Assembly: GCA_005880615.1 (NCBI GenBank)
Contig: VBID01000130.1
Span: forward strand, 1-36,604
DNA length: 36,604 nucleotides
Direction of reading: 5' to 3'
From: Chloroflexota bacterium
Lineage (GTDB): Bacteria; Chloroflexota; Dormibacteria; CF-121
The notes beneath the pieces are model-generated. The model searched no databases. It had not been told where the DNA came from and was given only the letters and a program-made list of their open reading frames with translations. Position 1 is the first letter of the stretch. Each line of letters opens with the position of its first letter. The position numbers were made by a program, and so were the translations under genes. Below are positions 21,944 through 30,418 of the stretch, piece by piece.

Positions 21944-23029
21944 CTACGCCAGGCCGGCTTCGAAGGTGGTCGCCATGTCCCCCAGCGCGCGCACGGCCCA
22001 GTTGGGTCGTTCGGTCATCGCGAACAGGCTGAGGCGGGCTTCGGCCAGGTGCTCGGAAGCCTGCCGGCGGCAGTAGGCGTGGGCGTTGGCCTGCGCCAGC
22101 ACAGTGCGCGCCACCTCCATCTCGGAGGGCGTGAAGCTGGCCCGCGTCAGCAGTCCGCGCAGCTGGCGCCGACCGGCGGCGGGGCCGGCCTTCAGAGCCA
22201 CCAGCGTGGGCAACGTCTTCTTGCCATTGCGCAGGTCGCTGCCCTCGGGCTTTCCGGTCTGGGCCGATGAGCCCCAGATGCCCTGGATGTCATCGATGAT
22301 TTGAAAGGCCATCCCCAGGTGGCGGCCGAAGTCGGCGGCGCGCTCGGAGGCCGCTTCGCCGGCACCCGCCGCCAGTGCCCCCAGGCGGGTGGCACAGGCG
22401 AACAGGCCGGCGGTCTTTAGCTCGATCATCTGCAGATACTCGTCCACCGAGACATCGACCCGCTGCTCGAACTCCAGGTCCATGACCTGGCCCCGGCACA
22501 GCCGCAGTGTGGCTTCCGACACCACCCGCAGGGCGGGCGCCAGCCGCTCCAGGTGGCGGGGCGGCATCAGCTCGGCGATGGCTTTGGGGACCAGGGCCTG
22601 CAGGGCCGCTCCGGCGTTGATCGCCTGGGGAGCGCCCCAAACTCTCCACACGGCGGCCCGCCCCCGCCGCAGCTCGTCGCCGTCCTGGATGTCGTCGAAG
22701 ACCAGGGAGAAGTTGTGGGCCAGCTCGACAGCGACCGCCGCCCAGATGGCGTCGGCGTAGCGGCGGCCGAAGGCCTCGCAGGTGAGGAGCGCCAGGTTGG
22801 CCCGCACCCGTTTCCCCGGACGCGCCCCCGCCCCGCGCAGCCCGAGGTGGTACTGCACCATCTCGGTGAGCAACGAGGACTCGGTGGACCCGACGATTTG
22901 GGAAAAGCGGGTGAGCTCCCGGTCGAGGGCGCCATTCATGGCCTCCAACCGGGCGGAACGGCTGGCAAAGGGTTTGCCCGTGTCGCCCGACGAGCCGGCG
23001 AGCCGTCTGCTGGGCGGCCGGGCCCTCAT
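21944..23029 (-). CDS. Polyprenyl (probably geranylgeranyl) diphosphate synthase
   Basis: First aspartate-rich motif LVFDDIQDGDELRRG; second FQIIDDIQGIWG; GKRVRANLALLTCEAFG. Phe at -5 from the first motif is compatible with archaeal-type GGPP synthases. Confidence 0.9.
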   Translation of the reverse strand: MRARPPSRRLAGSSGDTGKPFASRSARLEAMNGALDRELTRFSQIVGSTESSLLTEMVQYHLGLRGAGARPGKRVRANLALLTCEAFGRRYADAIWAAVAVELAHNFSLVFDDIQDGDELRRGRAAVWRVWGAPQAINAGAALQALVPKAIAELMPPRHLERLAPALRVVSEATLRLCRGQVMDLEFEQRVDVSVDEYLQMIELKTAGLFACATRLGALAAGAGEAASERAADFGRHLGMAFQIIDDIQGIWGSSAQTGKPEGSDLRNGKKTLPTLVALKAGPAAGRRQLRGLLTRASFTPSEMEVARTVLAQANAHAYCRRQASEHLAEARLSLFAMTERPNWAVRALGDMATTFEAGLA

Positions 23030-24075
23030 CGCGACTCGATCAGCCGGTCCAGCGTCAGGGCGTCGAGAGACCCCGCGCCCGAACAGAACATGGCGACTCG
23101 CAGCTGCCAGCCAAAGCCATCCAGCAGGCGGCGCGCCGGTTCCTCACCCTGGGCCGCGGCCGCCAGCACGGCGTGGGCAAACCCCACCAGGCGAGCGCCC
23201 ATGGCGAGCGCCTTGGCAGCGTCCAGGCCGTTCTTGATGCCGCCGCTGGCGATGATGGGGGTTGCCGGCGCGGCTGCCTTCGCCTGCAGGACCGCCTCGG
23301 CGGTGGGAATGCCCCACTCGGAGAACGCCAGGGCCAGCTCGACCTCGTCGGCGCTGTCCCGGCGGAACGCCTCCACTCGGGCAAAGCTGGTCCCCCCGGC
23401 GCCCGCCACATCAATGGCGGCCACCCCGGCCTCGGCCAGCTGCCGGGCGATGGGGCCAGAGATGCCGCTGCCGACCTCCTTCACAATGACGGGTACCGGC
23501 AGGGCGCGGGCGATCAGGCCGATCTTCTCCAGGAGCCCCCGAAAGTTGTGATCACCTTCCTGCTGCAATGCCTCCTGGAGCGGGTTCAAGTGCAGGACCA
23601 GGGCGTCGGCGCCGATCATCTCCACCGCCTCCAGGCACTGGTCGATCCCGACGCCGTAGTTGAGCTGCACGGCGCCCAGGTTGGCCAGCAGCAGGATGTC
23701 GGGGGCGACGCTGCGCACCTGGTAGGTGGACCGCAGGTCCTTGTGGGTCAGCCCCGCCCGTTGGGACCCGACCCCGAAAGCCAGGCCCATGGTCTGAGCG
23801 ACCAGCGCCAGCCGGCGGTTGATGTCCCCAGCGGCGTGAGCCCCGCCGGTCATGCTGGAGAGCAGGAAGGGCAGTCGCAGGCGGCGGCCCAGGAAGGTGG
23901 TGCTGGTATCGATCGTGTCCAGATCGAGCTCCGGCAGGGCCTGGTGGACAAAGCTCCACCGCTCGAAGCCGGCGCTGCGGGTGGATTGCACCGACTCCTC
24001 CAGCGACAGGCGCAGGTGTTGCAGCTTGCGCTCGGAAATGCGCGAGACGGGCTTGCCGGTGGCGTCCTGCATCAT
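23026..24075 (-). CDS. fni: Type 2 isopentenyl-diphosphate delta-isomerase (FMN-dependent)
   Basis: [89 protein letters not shown]. Confidence 0.95.
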
Positions 24076-26462
24076 GCGGCGCCTTGCTCCGCAGTCACGG
24101 CATGGTCGTGCTGCTCGTCTTCCGGCGGCCGCTTGCGCATCATCTGGATGAAGTAATCAACGATGATCGGGTCGAATTGTGTGCCCTTGCCCGCTTCCAG
24201 CTGGGCCAGGGCGAACTCCTGGGTGCGCTTCTGGCGGTAGGGCCGAGTGGAGGTCATGGCGTGATAGGCGTCGCACACGGACACGATGCGGGCGTGCAGG
24301 GGGATGTTCTGCCCGGCCAGCCCATCGGGGTAGCCGCTCCCGTCGTACCACTCGTGGTGGTGGAGGACGACGTTCAGGATCTGGCGGAACGCCTTGATGG
24401 GCTGCAGGATGCGCGCTCCCAGCACCGGGTGCATGCGCATGACGAGCTTTTCGTCCTCGTCCAGCTTGCCCTCCTTGAGCAGCACCTTGTCCACCACGCC
24501 GATCTTGCCCACGTCGTGCAGGATGGCCGCCAGGCGGAGCTGGTTGCGGTGCGCCGGGGACAGCTGCAGCATCTCGGCCAGATCCTCCGCCAGCTGGGCG
24601 ACATACTGGGAGTGACCGCTGGTGTAGGGGTCCTTGGCGTCGATGCTGGCGGCCAGCGCGTTGAGCGCCTCCAGCGCCCCTTCGCTGTTGGGCGAGAGGG
24701 TACCCTCGGCCAGTTCTTCCAGGTGCTTGGAGTTGGCGATCTGTCCCAACCGCTTCTCGAGGGTGGCGACCATGCCGGGTCCCACCGTGTCCGCGGTGCT
24801 GAGCTGGGCGACGACCTCGGACAGCACCGAGTCCAGGGCGGCGACGCTTTCCAGCTCGCTGGCGCCGCAGATGCAGTTGCGGCCACGCTTCTTGGCCATG
24901 TACATCGCCAGGTCGGCCCGGTTCAGCAGCTCGTCCCGGGTCCGGGCATCCACCGGGTAGGTGGCCCAGCCGACGCTGGCCGTCAGCGGCGCAAAGATGG
25001 TCTTGGGGTTGTACATGAACACTTTGGAGAGCGTGTCGCAGATCTCCTGCGCCCGGATGGGCGCGGTCTGCAGGTCGACACCTGGGAGGATGGCCACGAA
25101 CTCTTCACCGCCGTATCGGGTGACGACATCCTCCCGCCGCATGGTGGAGGAGATCGTTCGAGCAGCGGCCTTCAGCGCGACGTCGCCGGCCGCGTGGCCG
25201 AAGCTGTCGTTGTAGACCTTGAACCGATCCAGGTCGACCATCATCACGGTGATCGACCCACCTTTCTCCTTAACCTTCTCCATCTCCTCATCGAGACGGG
25301 TGTGGAAGTAGCGGTGGTTGGGCAACCCGGTGACGGAGTCCGTCACCGACAGCCGCTGGGCCTGATCCAACGTGTGGGCGTTGCGCATGGCGATGCCGGC
25401 CCGCTCGGCGAACGTGAGCAGGAGTTCCTGCTCGGTGTCCCGGAGCGGTAGCTCTCGTCCGGCGAAGCCCATCACCAGGTCCGCGATGGCACGCGCGCCA
25501 TGGAACACCGGGACTCGCACCCAGATGCCCGCCGGCAGCGCCTTGTGCTCCACGGTCATGAACACATTCGGGTCCGCGACCGGGATCACCTGCTCACCCG
25601 AGACGGGGTTCAGGCTGAGCCGGGCGGCTGAGAGGTCGGTGCCGGCGTGGGCCTGGGCCAGCTCGGGGCTCCAATCGATGAAGAGCTTGGGCGCCACGGT
25701 GTCGCCCTCGGTCCCCAACAGGGACGGCATCTGCACCTGGAGCAGCACCACGTCTGCCTGCAGCAGGGCTCGCCCCTTCTCGGCCGCCAGCTGGCAGGTC
25801 TGTTCGAACTCGAGGTCGCGGTTCAGCTCCACGGTGACCTGCGAAAGGGCGGCATGGGCGCGCTCCAGCTCTTCTTGCAGGGCGTGCTCGGCCTTGCGGG
25901 CGCGGTCGCCCAGGAAGGCACTGAAGAATCCGGTGAGCCCCACGAAGCCCATCTGGATGACCACGTTGGTAAACCCCGCCACCGGGTCGGCCAGTCCGCC
26001 CGAACGGAAGTTGACGTAGTAGACGACCGCCAGGTAGCTGACAGTGGTCGTGGTCACGGCCATGATGGTCGCCAGGCCGCCGAACCGCACGGCGACCATG
26101 GCCACCACCAGGAAGTAGGCCAGCGAGAAGGGGGAGGTGATGCCCCCGCTGATGGCCACCCCGGCGGTGCAGATCAAGACGTCGCCGACCGATGAGATAT
26201 AGCCGGCGTTCAACCAGCGGGGCCCGCGGGGCACCAGCAGCTGCAGCGCCAGGTTGTAGGCCGCGGTGAACACGACCAGCGCCATCAGCGGGATGGTCTC
26301 GTTCCCCAGCCGGAGGAAGGGCAGCGCCCCCGTGGCGACGATGATGGCCAGCCAGCGGATGAAGACGACGCGACGCTCCATCTCGACGGCGGCCTGGGCA
26401 GCCGTGGAGGACTTGGCCGGGGCCCCGCGCTTGGAGAACGTCAGCTTGAGGGCGCCGCTCAT
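24072..26462 (-). CDS. Membrane GGDEF + HD-GYP bifunctional c-di-GMP turnover protein
   Basis: N-terminal TM helices, GAF-like region, I-site RRED then GGEEF (RREDVVTRYGGEEF), HD-GYP motifs HDVGKIGVVDKVLLKEG, HHHEWYDGSGYPDGL. Confidence 0.92.
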   Translation of the reverse strand: MSGALKLTFSKRGAPAKSSTAAQAAVEMERRVVFIRWLAIIVATGALPFLRLGNETIPLMALVVFTAAYNLALQLLVPRGPRWLNAGYISSVGDVLICTAGVAISGGITSPFSLAYFLVVAMVAVRFGGLATIMAVTTTTVSYLAVVYYVNFRSGGLADPVAGFTNVVIQMGFVGLTGFFSAFLGDRARKAEHALQEELERAHAALSQVTVELNRDLEFEQTCQLAAEKGRALLQADVVLLQVQMPSLLGTEGDTVAPKLFIDWSPELAQAHAGTDLSAARLSLNPVSGEQVIPVADPNVFMTVEHKALPAGIWVRVPVFHGARAIADLVMGFAGRELPLRDTEQELLLTFAERAGIAMRNAHTLDQAQRLSVTDSVTGLPNHRYFHTRLDEEMEKVKEKGGSITVMMVDLDRFKVYNDSFGHAAGDVALKAAARTISSTMRREDVVTRYGGEEFVAILPGVDLQTAPIRAQEICDTLSKVFMYNPKTIFAPLTASVGWATYPVDARTRDELLNRADLAMYMAKKRGRNCICGASELESVAALDSVLSEVVAQLSTADTVGPGMVATLEKRLGQIANSKHLEELAEGTLSPNSEGALEALNALAASIDAKDPYTSGHSQYVAQLAEDLAEMLQLSPAHRNQLRLAAILHDVGKIGVVDKVLLKEGKLDEDEKLVMRMHPVLGARILQPIKAFRQILNVVLHHHEWYDGSGYPDGLAGQNIPLHARIVSVCDAYHAMTSTRPYRQKRTQEFALAQLEAGKGTQFDPIIVDYFIQMMRKRPPEDEQHDHAVTAEQGAA

Positions 26463-26471
26463 TGCGACTCC

Positions 26472-27401
26472 TTAACCCGCCTTCTCCTGGAGCATCCAGG
26501 TCTGGTCGCGCAGGGCCGAACCCGAGCCGTGGGTGGCGAGGGAGTCATAGAAGTCGATGGCGGCGTGAGTGCTGGCCACCAGGCGGCGGAGGAAGTCCTG
26601 CGTCGGGCCGGTGCGGCGCTCGCGGGACACGCCGCGTTCCAGGATCTCCAGCTCCCGCTCCATCACCAGCCGGGCGTCCTTCCGAGGGTTGGCCTGGGAG
26701 GCGCCGTTCAAGGCCTCGGCGGCCAGGTCCAAGGAATTGAACCGGCCGTGGGCGTGCTCGTGCTCGTAGCTGTGCAGGTCGTTGGCGATGCGGACCACCC
26801 GCGAGGCCTGGCAGATGTGCCCGAAGAGCCGGTTCTTGAGCTCCTGCGGCACGTCCTGGTAGGCGAAGGCGAGGATGCTCACCTGGACGATGGGGAGGGC
26901 GATGGTATAGAGGCCGTTGGCCAGATAGGCATCCAGGCTGACCTGCTCCTGGTGCTTCACCCAGTGGTTTTCCTGCAGGAGGGTGAAGATGAACTTCTCC
27001 CAGACCAGGCGGCGCATCGGGGTCCACTCTTCGGACACTTCGTCCTCCGCGAACTGTTCCTCCATCTTTCGGGCGACATTGGCATGGGCCACCGGCATCT
27101 GGCTGAGATCGCGGTTGTGCCAGATGAGGAAGAGCTGGCCGACGCGGCGGTAGTCGACCATGTCCAGCTCGGGGTGCTCTTCCTCGATGTAGTCGTCGAT
27201 GTACTGGGCGTAGGCAATCGTTCGGACCAGCGCCAGCGCCTGGTCAAAGCTGGCCGATGGATGCAGCACCAGGGAGAGCGCGCAAGCCTCGGCCAGGCGC
27301 CAGCCCCGCCGCTCATCCTCCTCGAGGTGCTGGATGATCTTGGTTTCGTCGGTAAAGCGGAGCAGTGCGTCCTTCAGCTTGGTGATACGGCGGTCAAACA
27401 T
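26472..27401 (-). CDS. Class I terpene synthase (terpene cyclase)
   Basis: Aspartate-rich AQYIDDYIEEEHPELD; NSE triad IANDLHSYEHE; length 309 aa; next to a class II cyclase. Confidence 0.87.
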   Translation of the reverse strand: MFDRRITKLKDALLRFTDETKIIQHLEEDERRGWRLAEACALSLVLHPSASFDQALALVRTIAYAQYIDDYIEEEHPELDMVDYRRVGQLFLIWHNRDLSQMPVAHANVARKMEEQFAEDEVSEEWTPMRRLVWEKFIFTLLQENHWVKHQEQVSLDAYLANGLYTIALPIVQVSILAFAYQDVPQELKNRLFGHICQASRVVRIANDLHSYEHEHAHGRFNSLDLAAEALNGASQANPRKDARLVMERELEILERGVSRERRTGPTQDFLRRLVASTHAAIDFYDSLATHGSGSALRDQTWMLQEKAG

Positions 27402-28968
27402 GCGGGTTCGCCCCCTTCAGGAGAGTCCGAGCGGACAAGATGGCCGATTCAACGATGTGGACGGGGGTGTACAGGCCCTTGCCCACCCAGAGCGGGATGC
27501 GTGGCTCGCCGGCCGCCTCCGCCAGGAAGGTCTCCGCCGCGCCCAAGTTCACGCGCAGCCCTTGGCGCTGCGCCGGTGGCACCGCCAGCCACCCCTGCAC
27601 GGCGTAGGCGGTCTCTTCCGCCGTGCCCTGCTCAAACCAACCCCATGACCCGTCCGAGCGTTGGGTTTCGGCGAGCCACTTGAGCGCGGGGAGGCAGAGA
27701 TCGGGTGCCGACGCGGTAAGCGCGAAGACGACGCGGGCGGTGGCATAGAAGGGGGAACTATGCCACTTGTCAACCCAGTGTGCGCCGTCTACGCGCTGAT
27801 CGCGCAGGAACCGAACGACCTTTTGCTCCATGCTGGCGCGGGTGGGGAACGGTTGGCAGGCGGCGAGCGCCTCCAGCACGTGTGCGTTCACGGTTGGCGA
27901 TGGCTCGCGCTCCAGGGGGAAGGTGTGGAAATACTCGATGCCTTCGAACGACCGCAGCGGCCCGGCCACCGGGGACTGACCGTAGCGCTGGAGCACGGTG
28001 AGCGTCATGGCCGTGTCGTCGGCGTCCGGACGCAGTCCTGTCCGGGAGCACCCCACCCCGTCGTCGGTGAGGGTGGAGGCCAGGTAGCGGATGTGCCGGT
28101 CGGCGTCGGGAACGACGATCCCGGCACGAGCCAGGTTGTAGAGCACCCAGGCCCGCTCGAACACCTCAAATGGCGCCACGTCGGGGACGCCGCCCTCGGC
28201 GTCGACGACGCTATCCAGGTAAGCCCAGGCGGCCGGGGCGGCGCCCCCCCGCTCCAGGAAGTACGCGGTCGCGGACGGGGAGTTCCCGAATGATCCGTTC
28301 TCGGAGAGCTGGGCGGCGGCCGCGCCGACGTCCAGCCGGCTCCCCAGGTACTCCAGCGAATGGAGCAGGAGGGTGGGCATCTTGTAGATCAGGGTGGGCG
28401 GGATGTGGCCGAGCTTGGCTTCCCGCTGGGCTGTCACCCCGGCGAACCGGTCGAAGGGCAGCGGCAGTTGGCGGACGCGGCCATCGTCCATCAGGGTGGG
28501 GAGGATTTGCTCAAACCCGACCGGGGTCAGCCCCGTCTGCCAGTCGGCCGTTTTCTCCCAGAGATAGGTAAGCGCCGCCAGCCGAGCGCGGTGCGCGATC
28601 TCCTCGTGCTCGCCGGGCGGCAGCGCGGCCAGGGCCAGCACCGCACTGACCGTGGAGAGCACGCGCTCTTTGGGGATTGGGAGGGTGGTGCCAAAGCTGC
28701 CGTCGGCGTTTTGCGCCCGCAGCAGCCAGCGGAGCGTTGCGGGATAGGCCAGGGCGTCCGGGGCGCCAGGCTTGCGCAGCCGGGCCAGGAAGGCCGTGTC
28801 GTAGGCCACCGCGGACATGGTCCCGGTGCCCAGCACGCGGAGGAGATTGGCGGCCTCCGCCTGAGGCGACGGCGCCGTCTCGGGCGCCGCCGAAGGGTAG
28901 CCAGTCTGCCGAATCGCGTTCAGGTCCGTGTGTGACCCCCTTGTGGCGGGCACATTCCGGGTGCCCAA
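27394..28968 (-). CDS. Class II diterpene cyclase (copalyl/halimadienyl diphosphate synthase-like)
   Basis: DxDD motif RPDADDTAMTLTVLQ; VAYDTAFLARL near the N-terminus; QW-like repeats QNADGSFG and QRSDGSWGWFEQGTAEETAYAVQGW; 524 aa; 8-nt overlap with the class I gene. Confidence 0.9.
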   Translation of the reverse strand: MGTRNVPATRGSHTDLNAIRQTGYPSAAPETAPSPQAEAANLLRVLGTGTMSAVAYDTAFLARLRKPGAPDALAYPATLRWLLRAQNADGSFGTTLPIPKERVLSTVSAVLALAALPPGEHEEIAHRARLAALTYLWEKTADWQTGLTPVGFEQILPTLMDDGRVRQLPLPFDRFAGVTAQREAKLGHIPPTLIYKMPTLLLHSLEYLGSRLDVGAAAAQLSENGSFGNSPSATAYFLERGGAAPAAWAYLDSVVDAEGGVPDVAPFEVFERAWVLYNLARAGIVVPDADRHIRYLASTLTDDGVGCSRTGLRPDADDTAMTLTVLQRYGQSPVAGPLRSFEGIEYFHTFPLEREPSPTVNAHVLEALAACQPFPTRASMEQKVVRFLRDQRVDGAHWVDKWHSSPFYATARVVFALTASAPDLCLPALKWLAETQRSDGSWGWFEQGTAEETAYAVQGWLAVPPAQRQGLRVNLGAAETFLAEAAGEPRIPLWVGKGLYTPVHIVESAILSARTLLKGANPHV

Positions 28969-29158
28969 GCGGAGCCTAGTGGCGGGCCATTGCGACGGAC
29001 GTTGCGGGATCCGGCGTCGGGTGACGGAACCTTACGCGAGGTCACGCTTCCGTCACAACCTGCGGGCCCGTCCGGTGCGCGGCAAGGGGCCCATGGTACC
29101 GGCCGTTTGCTCTTGTGCGACGTCTGCGCGTTTTCATTGGGGGACCAGTCCAAACTTG

Positions 29159-30418
29159 GTGCTGCGACCGCCGGCGCTGATCCGATTTCACTACCAGCTC
29201 GAGCGGCAGGCGTGGCGCATGCTGTCGGTCCATTCCGCCTACACCGCCGCCAACCTGTTCGCCGCCACCTTCCTGTCCATCTTCATCTGGCGAGCGCACC
29301 ACGACCTGGGCCAGGTCTGCCTGTTCAATGCCGTGTACGCGCTCGGCGTCCCGATCGCGTTCCTGGCCAACGGCTGGCTATTCCGGCGCGGCGACGCCGG
29401 AACCTCGATCCGCCGCGGTCTCCTGACGCTGAGCTTCCTCTATGTGCTGGTGCTCTTCCTGGGCAACGCCAGCGCCGGCGCGCTGCTCCTGTTGGGATTG
29501 ATGCGCGGCCTGGGTGAGGGCTGGTACTGGGCCGGCTATCACCTGGTCACCTACGACGCCATCGCCCGCGGAAACCGAGACCGGTACTTCGGTGCCACGG
29601 GCGCCTCAGGCGCCTTCCTGGGTGTGGCCGTGCCGCCGCTGGCCGGGACCATCATCGTCCTGGGTACCCATGGGGGCGGCAGCTACGGCGGCTACCAGGT
29701 CACGTTTGGGGTGGCGGCCGCCACGCTGCTGGCTGCCGCCCTGCTGGCCGGCGGCCTCCAGGCGGGCCGGCGCCAGGGCTTCTCCCTCCGCGGGATGCTA
29801 CAGTTGCCGCACCGAAATCCGGCCTGGTCCTACGTCACCTGGGCCCGGCTGGCCGATGGCTCGACGGGATTCGTGCTGGGGATGGTGGTCAGCATCCTGA
29901 CCTTCGTGACCCTGCGCAACGAGCAGAACGTGGGCGGCTTCAACGCCCTGGTGGGCCTGCTGACCATGGGGCTCAGCCTCGGGTTGGGCATGTGGCTTCC
30001 CGCCCGACACCGAATGCGGTGCGCCCTGCTGGGCGGGAGCCTGCTGGTGGCCTCGACGCTCGTGTATCCCCTCTATCTCTCGGTCGGCGCGCTGGTGCTG
30101 TTCGGGCTGCTCCGGGCGCTGGGTGGTCCGCTGCACGGCAATGCGCTGGCCCCCCTGTGGCTGCAGGTGATCGACCGGGATCCCCAGGCGCAGGAGCTAC
30201 GCTACGAGTACATCGTGTCCCAGGAGCTGACGTTAGGGATCGGCCGGGTGCTCAGTGTGCTGGCCGTTATGGCGCTGGCGGCCCCCATCGACCAGCTCAC
30301 CCTGGCCCGAGTGGCCCTGGTGGTGGCCGGCGCGGCGCCCATTCTGATCTGGGCGGCTTTTGCTAGGATCGGGGCGCCGGTGGCGGTTGCGTCACGCCCC
30401 CTCCAGGTGGCCGCCTGA
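29159..30418 (+). CDS. Major facilitator superfamily-type transporter
   Basis: About 12 hydrophobic segments; LMRGLGEGWYWAGYHLVTYDAIARGNRDRYFGATGASGAFLGVAVPPLAGTIIV. Start trimmed to GTG 29159 (TTG 29156 also possible). Confidence 0.75.
   Translation: MLRPPALIRFHYQLERQAWRMLSVHSAYTAANLFAATFLSIFIWRAHHDLGQVCLFNAVYALGVPIAFLANGWLFRRGDAGTSIRRGLLTLSFLYVLVLFLGNASAGALLLLGLMRGLGEGWYWAGYHLVTYDAIARGNRDRYFGATGASGAFLGVAVPPLAGTIIVLGTHGGGSYGGYQVTFGVAAATLLAAALLAGGLQAGRRQGFSLRGMLQLPHRNPAWSYVTWARLADGSTGFVLGMVVSILTFVTLRNEQNVGGFNALVGLLTMGLSLGLGMWLPARHRMRCALLGGSLLVASTLVYPLYLSVGALVLFGLLRALGGPLHGNALAPLWLQVIDRDPQAQELRYEYIVSQELTLGIGRVLSVLAVMALAAPIDQLTLARVALVVAGAAPILIWAAFARIGAPVAVASRPLQVAA

Follow-up and report, generated by a model that had tools for sequence, protein, structure and literature searches.

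A putative bifunctional c-di-GMP enzyme with a membrane sensor half is encoded within a conserved diterpene operon of Chloroflexota

Class II diterpene cyclases are recurrently linked to membrane sensors across Chloroflexota, a linkage that is new here, and in the family of the genome analysed (f1) the gene of a c-di-GMP enzyme is embedded in the diterpene operon itself. We are confident that this operon is a real co-expressed functional module. More tentatively, we favour the explanation that it unites diterpene synthesis with a membrane-sensor module whose output is c-di-GMP, the sensor half of the protein reading a diterpenoid or the state of the membrane. Coordinates follow the forward strand of the window, i.e., the whole stretch of 36,604 nt that was analysed (contig VBID01000130.1 of Chloroflexota bacterium, GCA_005880615.1), which contains the following features:

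28928..30418, plus strand: divergent MFS-like transporter (weak PF07690 match; synteny; true start probably about 29159)
27394..28968, minus strand: class II diterpene cyclase, first gene of the operon (DADD motif at about 28015-28026; present in 18/18 family genomes)
26472..27401, minus strand: class I terpene synthase (PF19086, 60.7 bits; metal motifs IDDYIEEE and NDLHSYEHE)
24072..26462, minus strand: c-di-GMP membrane enzyme, 6TM-GAF-GGDEF-HD-GYP (ORF of 796 aa, ATG start; Pfam, motifs, AlphaFold model, Foldseek)
25893..26390, minus strand: its six-helix membrane sensor part (aa 25-190; hydropathy, hhalign, AlphaFold model)
25368..25835, minus strand: its GAF-like domain (about aa 210-365; AlphaFold model and Foldseek matches to GAF domains)
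24858..25367, minus strand: its GGDEF domain (PF00990; GGEEF at 25098-25112, I-site RRED at 25128-25139)
24123..24677, minus strand: its HD-GYP phosphodiesterase domain (PF13487; full set of canonical motifs; aligned to PDB 4mcw and 5z7c)
23026..24075, minus strand: fni, type 2 IPP isomerase (TIGR02151, 397.9 bits)
21944..23029, minus strand: prenyl diphosphate synthase, probable GGPPS (PF00348, 220 bits)

The operon runs in the order class II cyclase, class I synthase, c-di-GMP gene, fni and GGPPS gene, and a GDSL-type lipase/acylhydrolase gene comes after it. The class I gene overlaps the cyclase gene by 8 nt and is separated from the c-di-GMP gene by a 9-nt gap (26463-26471); the c-di-GMP gene and fni share 4 nt (ATGA, 24072-24075), and the overlap between fni and the GGPPS gene in the window is also 4 nt. 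The original prediction had placed the c-di-GMP gene between the class I synthase and fni with this gap and this ATGA overlap, as the sequence confirms, and had described the surroundings as a terpene operon, which is borne out by profile and PDB matches for the class I, class II, fni and polyprenyl synthase neighbours. The cyclase matched PDB entries 6vpt (E = 5e-61) and 5bp8, an ent-copalyl-PP synthase (E = 1e-40), and its D-x-DDTA motif is kept in every row of the class II cyclase alignment; its true start, the TTG at 28968 or a codon further in, is uncertain. The locus thus combines the hallmarks of a class II/class I operon, namely DxDD, the class I Asp-rich and NSE motifs, a prenyl diphosphate supply and short overlaps. 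No internal promoter-like or terminator-like sites were seen on the coding strand of the operon, although this is a weak test. The window's genome has fni as its sole TIGR02151-type match and encodes another polyprenyl synthase elsewhere, the latter suggesting that the GGPPS copy of the operon is dedicated. This GGPPS was rejected as a family 2 encapsulin cargo, its best NCBIfam match (277.7 bits) being below the cut-off of 450 and no convincing shell gene being found in the genome. The MFS-like gene adjoins the cyclase gene in relatives wherever the contig reaches, and its product is a possible exporter. A small G+C-rich inverted repeat of the CCCTCCCCCGC-TGCGGGGGAGGG type takes up the fni-GGPPS gap of some relatives (L072, L076, and L077) and is absent from the window.

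Judged by its motifs, the c-di-GMP protein is a putative bifunctional enzyme equipped for both synthesis and breakdown of c-di-GMP. Pfam recovered a GGDEF domain (PF00990, 150.5 bits, aa 373-529), as well as HD_5 (131.4 bits, aa 604-765) and HD (78.1 bits) matches. The GGDEF domain has a GG(D/E)EF active site (GGEEF, 451-455) with the metal and substrate residues (DLDxFKxxND, GHxxGD), and direct reading located the RxxD of the allosteric I-site (RRED, R442-D445) five residues upstream of it. The HD-GYP metal-ligand set (H, HD, H, HHExxDGxGYP and D) is complete, with GHS (H617), HDVGKIG (H649/D650), HP (H678), HHEWYDGSGYP (702-712) and D731. In an alignment of eight species, the stretch RRED-VVTRY-GGEEF was invariant save for the first V, and Y706 was the lone variable residue among the GGDEF, I-site and HD-GYP motif residues. 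Pfam and motif reading therefore uphold the earlier claim that GGEEF, the I-site and the HD-GYP motifs are intact, and the membrane anchoring claimed with it agrees with the predicted hydrophobic helices at the N-terminus, five by a simple hydropathy scan and six in the AlphaFold model. The GAF-like region had no Pfam match. No solved fold was found for the six-helix part among the Foldseek matches listed, which cover the GAF part.

The class I synthase was recovered in 18/18 family genomes, which represent 4 genera, and in 0/92 genomes from the rest of the class, and full-strength matches to the c-di-GMP enzyme were likewise confined to the family, with none in these 92 genomes. In all 18 species the c-di-GMP gene comes directly after that of the synthase, in the same orientation and on one contig, so that the objection that had been foreseen for the original prediction, absence of this gene from the cluster in relatives, fails. 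Where measured, the gap between them is -1 to 9 nt (40 in one genome), and the spacing from the c-di-GMP gene to fni is -1 to 6 nt in the cleanly readable cases, an apparent 365-nt overlap in one relative being most likely a frameshift. The continuation to fni is visible in 17 genomes, and in G064 the contig stops inside the c-di-GMP gene. Assemblies of f1 are fragmented, and those relatives that bear a name are MAGs listed as "Chloroflexi bacterium", whose sample codes seem to belong to the series that Diamond et al. 2019 obtained from grassland soil in California; contig ends or seeming frameshifts interrupt the locus in several relatives, L076 and L089 among them. Genes of the synthase, fni, the lipase or the c-di-GMP enzyme look split or frameshifted in L067/L081, L076, and L089, probably through assembly errors.

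Since the order is the same in every family genome, the arrangement is not due to chance, and the conserved couplings make co-expression of the c-di-GMP gene with the terpene genes very likely. Synteny across the family extends to the whole neighbourhood of about 30 kb, which includes the FtsH, Lon, MFS and PucR genes, so that the family-wide order does not amount to many independent events and the linkage within the family is weaker as independent evidence. We rejected the idea that a pairing of fni with the c-di-GMP gene is older than the synthases, no c-di-GMP gene being present beside fni at nine loci of other families; only L153 among them has a GGDEF-EAL gene, several kb off and on the opposite strand.

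Between the window's genus and the others, identity of the c-di-GMP protein rises from 52-56% in the transmembrane part and 69-72% in the GAF domain to 91-94% in GGDEF and 92-94% in HD-GYP, the corresponding values for its operon neighbours being 57-62% (synthases), about 75% (fni) and 71-73% (GGPPS). Four-fold degenerate sites are about 40-54% identical, alike in all parts, and synonymous sites are saturated. This equal divergence shows that the catalytic half is kept by purifying selection at the protein level and not by recent spread; recent transfer or recombination as the source of the extreme conservation was ruled out, the four-fold sites being as diverged as those of the neighbouring genes.

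Outside the family, a class II profile search over 400 Chloroflexota genomes recovered cyclases in 42. Nine of the 11 other cyclase families (f5, f55, f41, f9, f14, f8, f38, f12, and f23) have a histidine kinase and/or response regulator gene at most 3 kb away on the same strand, and f15 and f53 have no signalling neighbour within 3 kb on the cyclase strand; at L164 (f55) the contig stops inside the sensor gene. Signalling neighbours were sought with a small set of tblastn queries, identical for targets and controls, and the background rate in twenty control regions of 20 kb each, drawn from these genomes or their sisters, was 3.2% (kinases) and 3.7% (signalling genes of any kind). The binomial p for the linkage is about 2e-12 at the family level and 7e-7 by cyclase lineage, any remaining shared ancestry being ignored in these values. 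Ordinary isoprenoid loci, a less clean control, had a kinase beside GGPPS in 2/9 cases, from one genus. L149 and L151 (f2, genus g18) offer a further neighbourhood of isoprenoid and signalling genes: an ordinary fni/GGPPS locus has a histidine kinase gene adjoining that of GGPPS and, a few kb off, a gene of the squalene-hopene-cyclase type.

The gene order varies between families: cyclase, synthase, 6TM-GAF membrane kinase and receiver-GAF-HD-GYP protein in f9; synthase, cyclase, receiver, 6TM-GAF membrane kinase and GGDEF-EAL protein in f5, f41, and f55; ICMT-like methyltransferase, Rv3378c-like diterpene synthase (256 bits to PDB 3wqk), cyclase, kinase and receiver in f8; receiver, kinase and cyclase in f12, likewise in f38 with a class I synthase in between; and kinase, receiver and cyclase in f23. 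These differences argue for several separate associations of cyclases with sensors. Four of the families (f9, f5, f41, and f55) thus also encode a c-di-GMP-type enzyme, GGDEF-EAL or HD-GYP. In the cyclase tree, a signalling neighbour is present in every family outside the f15/f23/f53 clade. The sister group of the window's family is f9 (bootstrap 81), where cyclase, synthase and sensor come in the same order. We found no report of a linkage between such cyclases and membrane sensors or c-di-GMP enzymes in the open-access literature searched, whose coverage is incomplete.

The N-terminus of the c-di-GMP protein is homologous to those of the f5/f41/f55 kinases (hhalign 99.6%, E 1.4e-23) and of the f9 kinase (98.7%, E 2e-16, 315 columns including GAF). 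Homology of the sensor half to the f8, f14, f12, f38, and f23 kinases, which have other multi-helix membrane N-termini, was not detected. In our scan of the phylum the six-helix domain is common, and it forms the N-terminus of kinases, GGDEF, GGDEF-EAL and HD-GYP proteins whose genes lie apart from terpene genes as well. A single co-evolved diterpene-receptor domain was rejected, the terpene-linked sensors not forming one clade (AU p = 0.0003); a clade of the f1 and f9 sensors alone was not rejected (AU p = 0.14). Given the lack of a single sensor clade and the wide occurrence of the domain, the data do not support a co-inherited diterpene receptor, and repeated recruitment of sensors is the better reading. 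No support was found for the f1 output domains being derived from those of the f4 6TM-GGDEF-HD-GYP proteins or from the f9 HD-GYP protein. The window's family encodes a second six-helix HD-GYP protein (L293:7153-8046; G000:C232:18364-19269) with a distantly related form of the sensor domain.

In the explanation that we favour, the operon would be expressed as one transcript, fni and GGPPS would supply GGPP, the class II and class I enzymes would convert it to a diterpene, and the co-translated 6TM-GAF-GGDEF-HD-GYP protein would be the dedicated membrane signalling enzyme of the module. Its 6TM-GAF half would sense the diterpenoid, or the membrane state that the diterpenoid creates, and this would flip the protein between c-di-GMP synthesis and breakdown, c-di-GMP being the output. 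The constant presence of the c-di-GMP gene in the family operon, and of a membrane sensor in most related clusters, suggests that diterpene and signalling work together. We hold a little more cautiously that the product, or its membrane effect, may be sensed rather than its synthesis controlled; the phylum-wide pattern would fit sensing with c-di-GMP output at least as well as control of the diterpene by c-di-GMP. Several points count against the favoured explanation: the six-helix domain does not appear to be a diterpene-specific receptor family, f15 and f53 are without a signalling neighbour, and two of the nine ordinary isoprenoid loci have a kinase. A broader proposal, which we consider somewhat unlikely, is that diterpenoids are self-made lipophilic signals in Chloroflexota, made by class II/class I or Rv3377c/Rv3378c-like pairs and read by co-encoded six-helix receptors (kinases, or GGDEF-HD-GYP proteins with direct c-di-GMP output).

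The alternative that survives best, although we find it doubtful, is co-regulation without direct sensing, the diterpene altering the membrane or having a protective role and the c-di-GMP enzyme being merely switched on in the same growth phase. The tight operon with its conserved couplings and the general nature of the sensor domain would agree with this, whereas the linkage of cyclases to sensors, repeated in different gene orders and apparently independent, calls for a more specific connection. We rate as rather unlikely that the c-di-GMP enzyme controls diterpene output, through transcription or enzyme activity, within a biofilm or dormancy switch. The c-di-GMP gene does share the operon of the diterpene genes, and c-di-GMP controls development in antibiotic-producing Streptomyces via BldD (PMC6205966). 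However, domain searches recognised no c-di-GMP effector, whether PilZ, BldD-like or another, in the operon, and related clusters frequently have a kinase and a free-standing receiver as signalling partner, so that control of the enzymes by c-di-GMP is not the common theme. Such control is possible, with no specific support, and a link of c-di-GMP to biofilm, desiccation or dormancy via diterpene production is purely inferential. Hitchhiking of a c-di-GMP gene that entered the operon once and was kept by vertical inheritance is very improbable, since, despite the synteny of the entire block, no family species has lost or relocated the gene, purifying selection is very strong with synonymous sites saturated, and analogous cyclase-signalling linkages exist in other families.

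Sensing of a diterpenoid would have a parallel in the DSF systems, RpfF-RpfR (PAS-GGDEF-EAL) and RpfF-RpfC/RpfG (HD-GYP), in whose gene layout a lipophilic-signal synthase gene lies beside that of a receptor and the output is c-di-GMP turnover. The same adjacency of a synthase gene and a protein with c-di-GMP output domains is seen in the operon, where the receptor role is putative, and the f9 clusters repeat the RpfC/RpfG layout with a membrane kinase followed by a receiver-HD-GYP protein. The RpfR gene lies beside that of RpfF in several species (PMC6361424), and both RpfF/RpfR and RpfC/RpfG served as layout comparison (PMC6361424, PMC8895600). Unlike these systems, the operon has diterpene synthases in place of the crotonase RpfF, and its protein joins 6TM-GAF sensor, GGDEF and HD-GYP in one chain. 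Domain searches found no crotonase domain of the RpfF type among the operon proteins; the operon is therefore not a DSF (Rpf) member and resembles one in layout only. The c-di-GMP protein shares domain composition and motifs with GGDEF-HD-GYP hybrids, some of which, in f4 of the same class, have a related six-helix N-terminus, but the f4 proteins are encoded away from terpene genes, and neither in sensor nor in output domains do they group with the c-di-GMP protein.

A 2022 census of c-di-GMP inputs stated that no lipid sensor domain was yet identified in such networks (PMC8846402). The c-di-GMP enzyme, fixed in the diterpene operon of every known species of the family, is a concrete and testable candidate for lipid sensing, and the operon gives a possible reason for diterpene making by soil Chloroflexota.

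Bacterial class II/class I diterpene operons, such as the rhizobial ent-kaurene operon, Rv3377c/Rv3378c and Herpetosiphon Haur_2145, resemble that of the window in their overlapping class II and class I genes and their GGPP supply. In the portion of the literature source consulted, CPS and KS genes of such operons overlap by four nucleotides and, unlike in the window, no embedded c-di-GMP enzyme is mentioned (PMC11469919). In f8 (L199-L210; detail from L200:6956-11986), a Rv3378c-like synthase/class II pair of the M. tuberculosis type directly precedes a membrane histidine kinase and a receiver. At the f23 locus of G207, presumably Herpetosiphon aurantiacus, the cyclase gene has kinase and receiver genes as neighbours in our analysis; the same-strand cluster (L223:5208-11862) comprises a hybrid kinase, receivers and a methyltransferase besides the cyclase.
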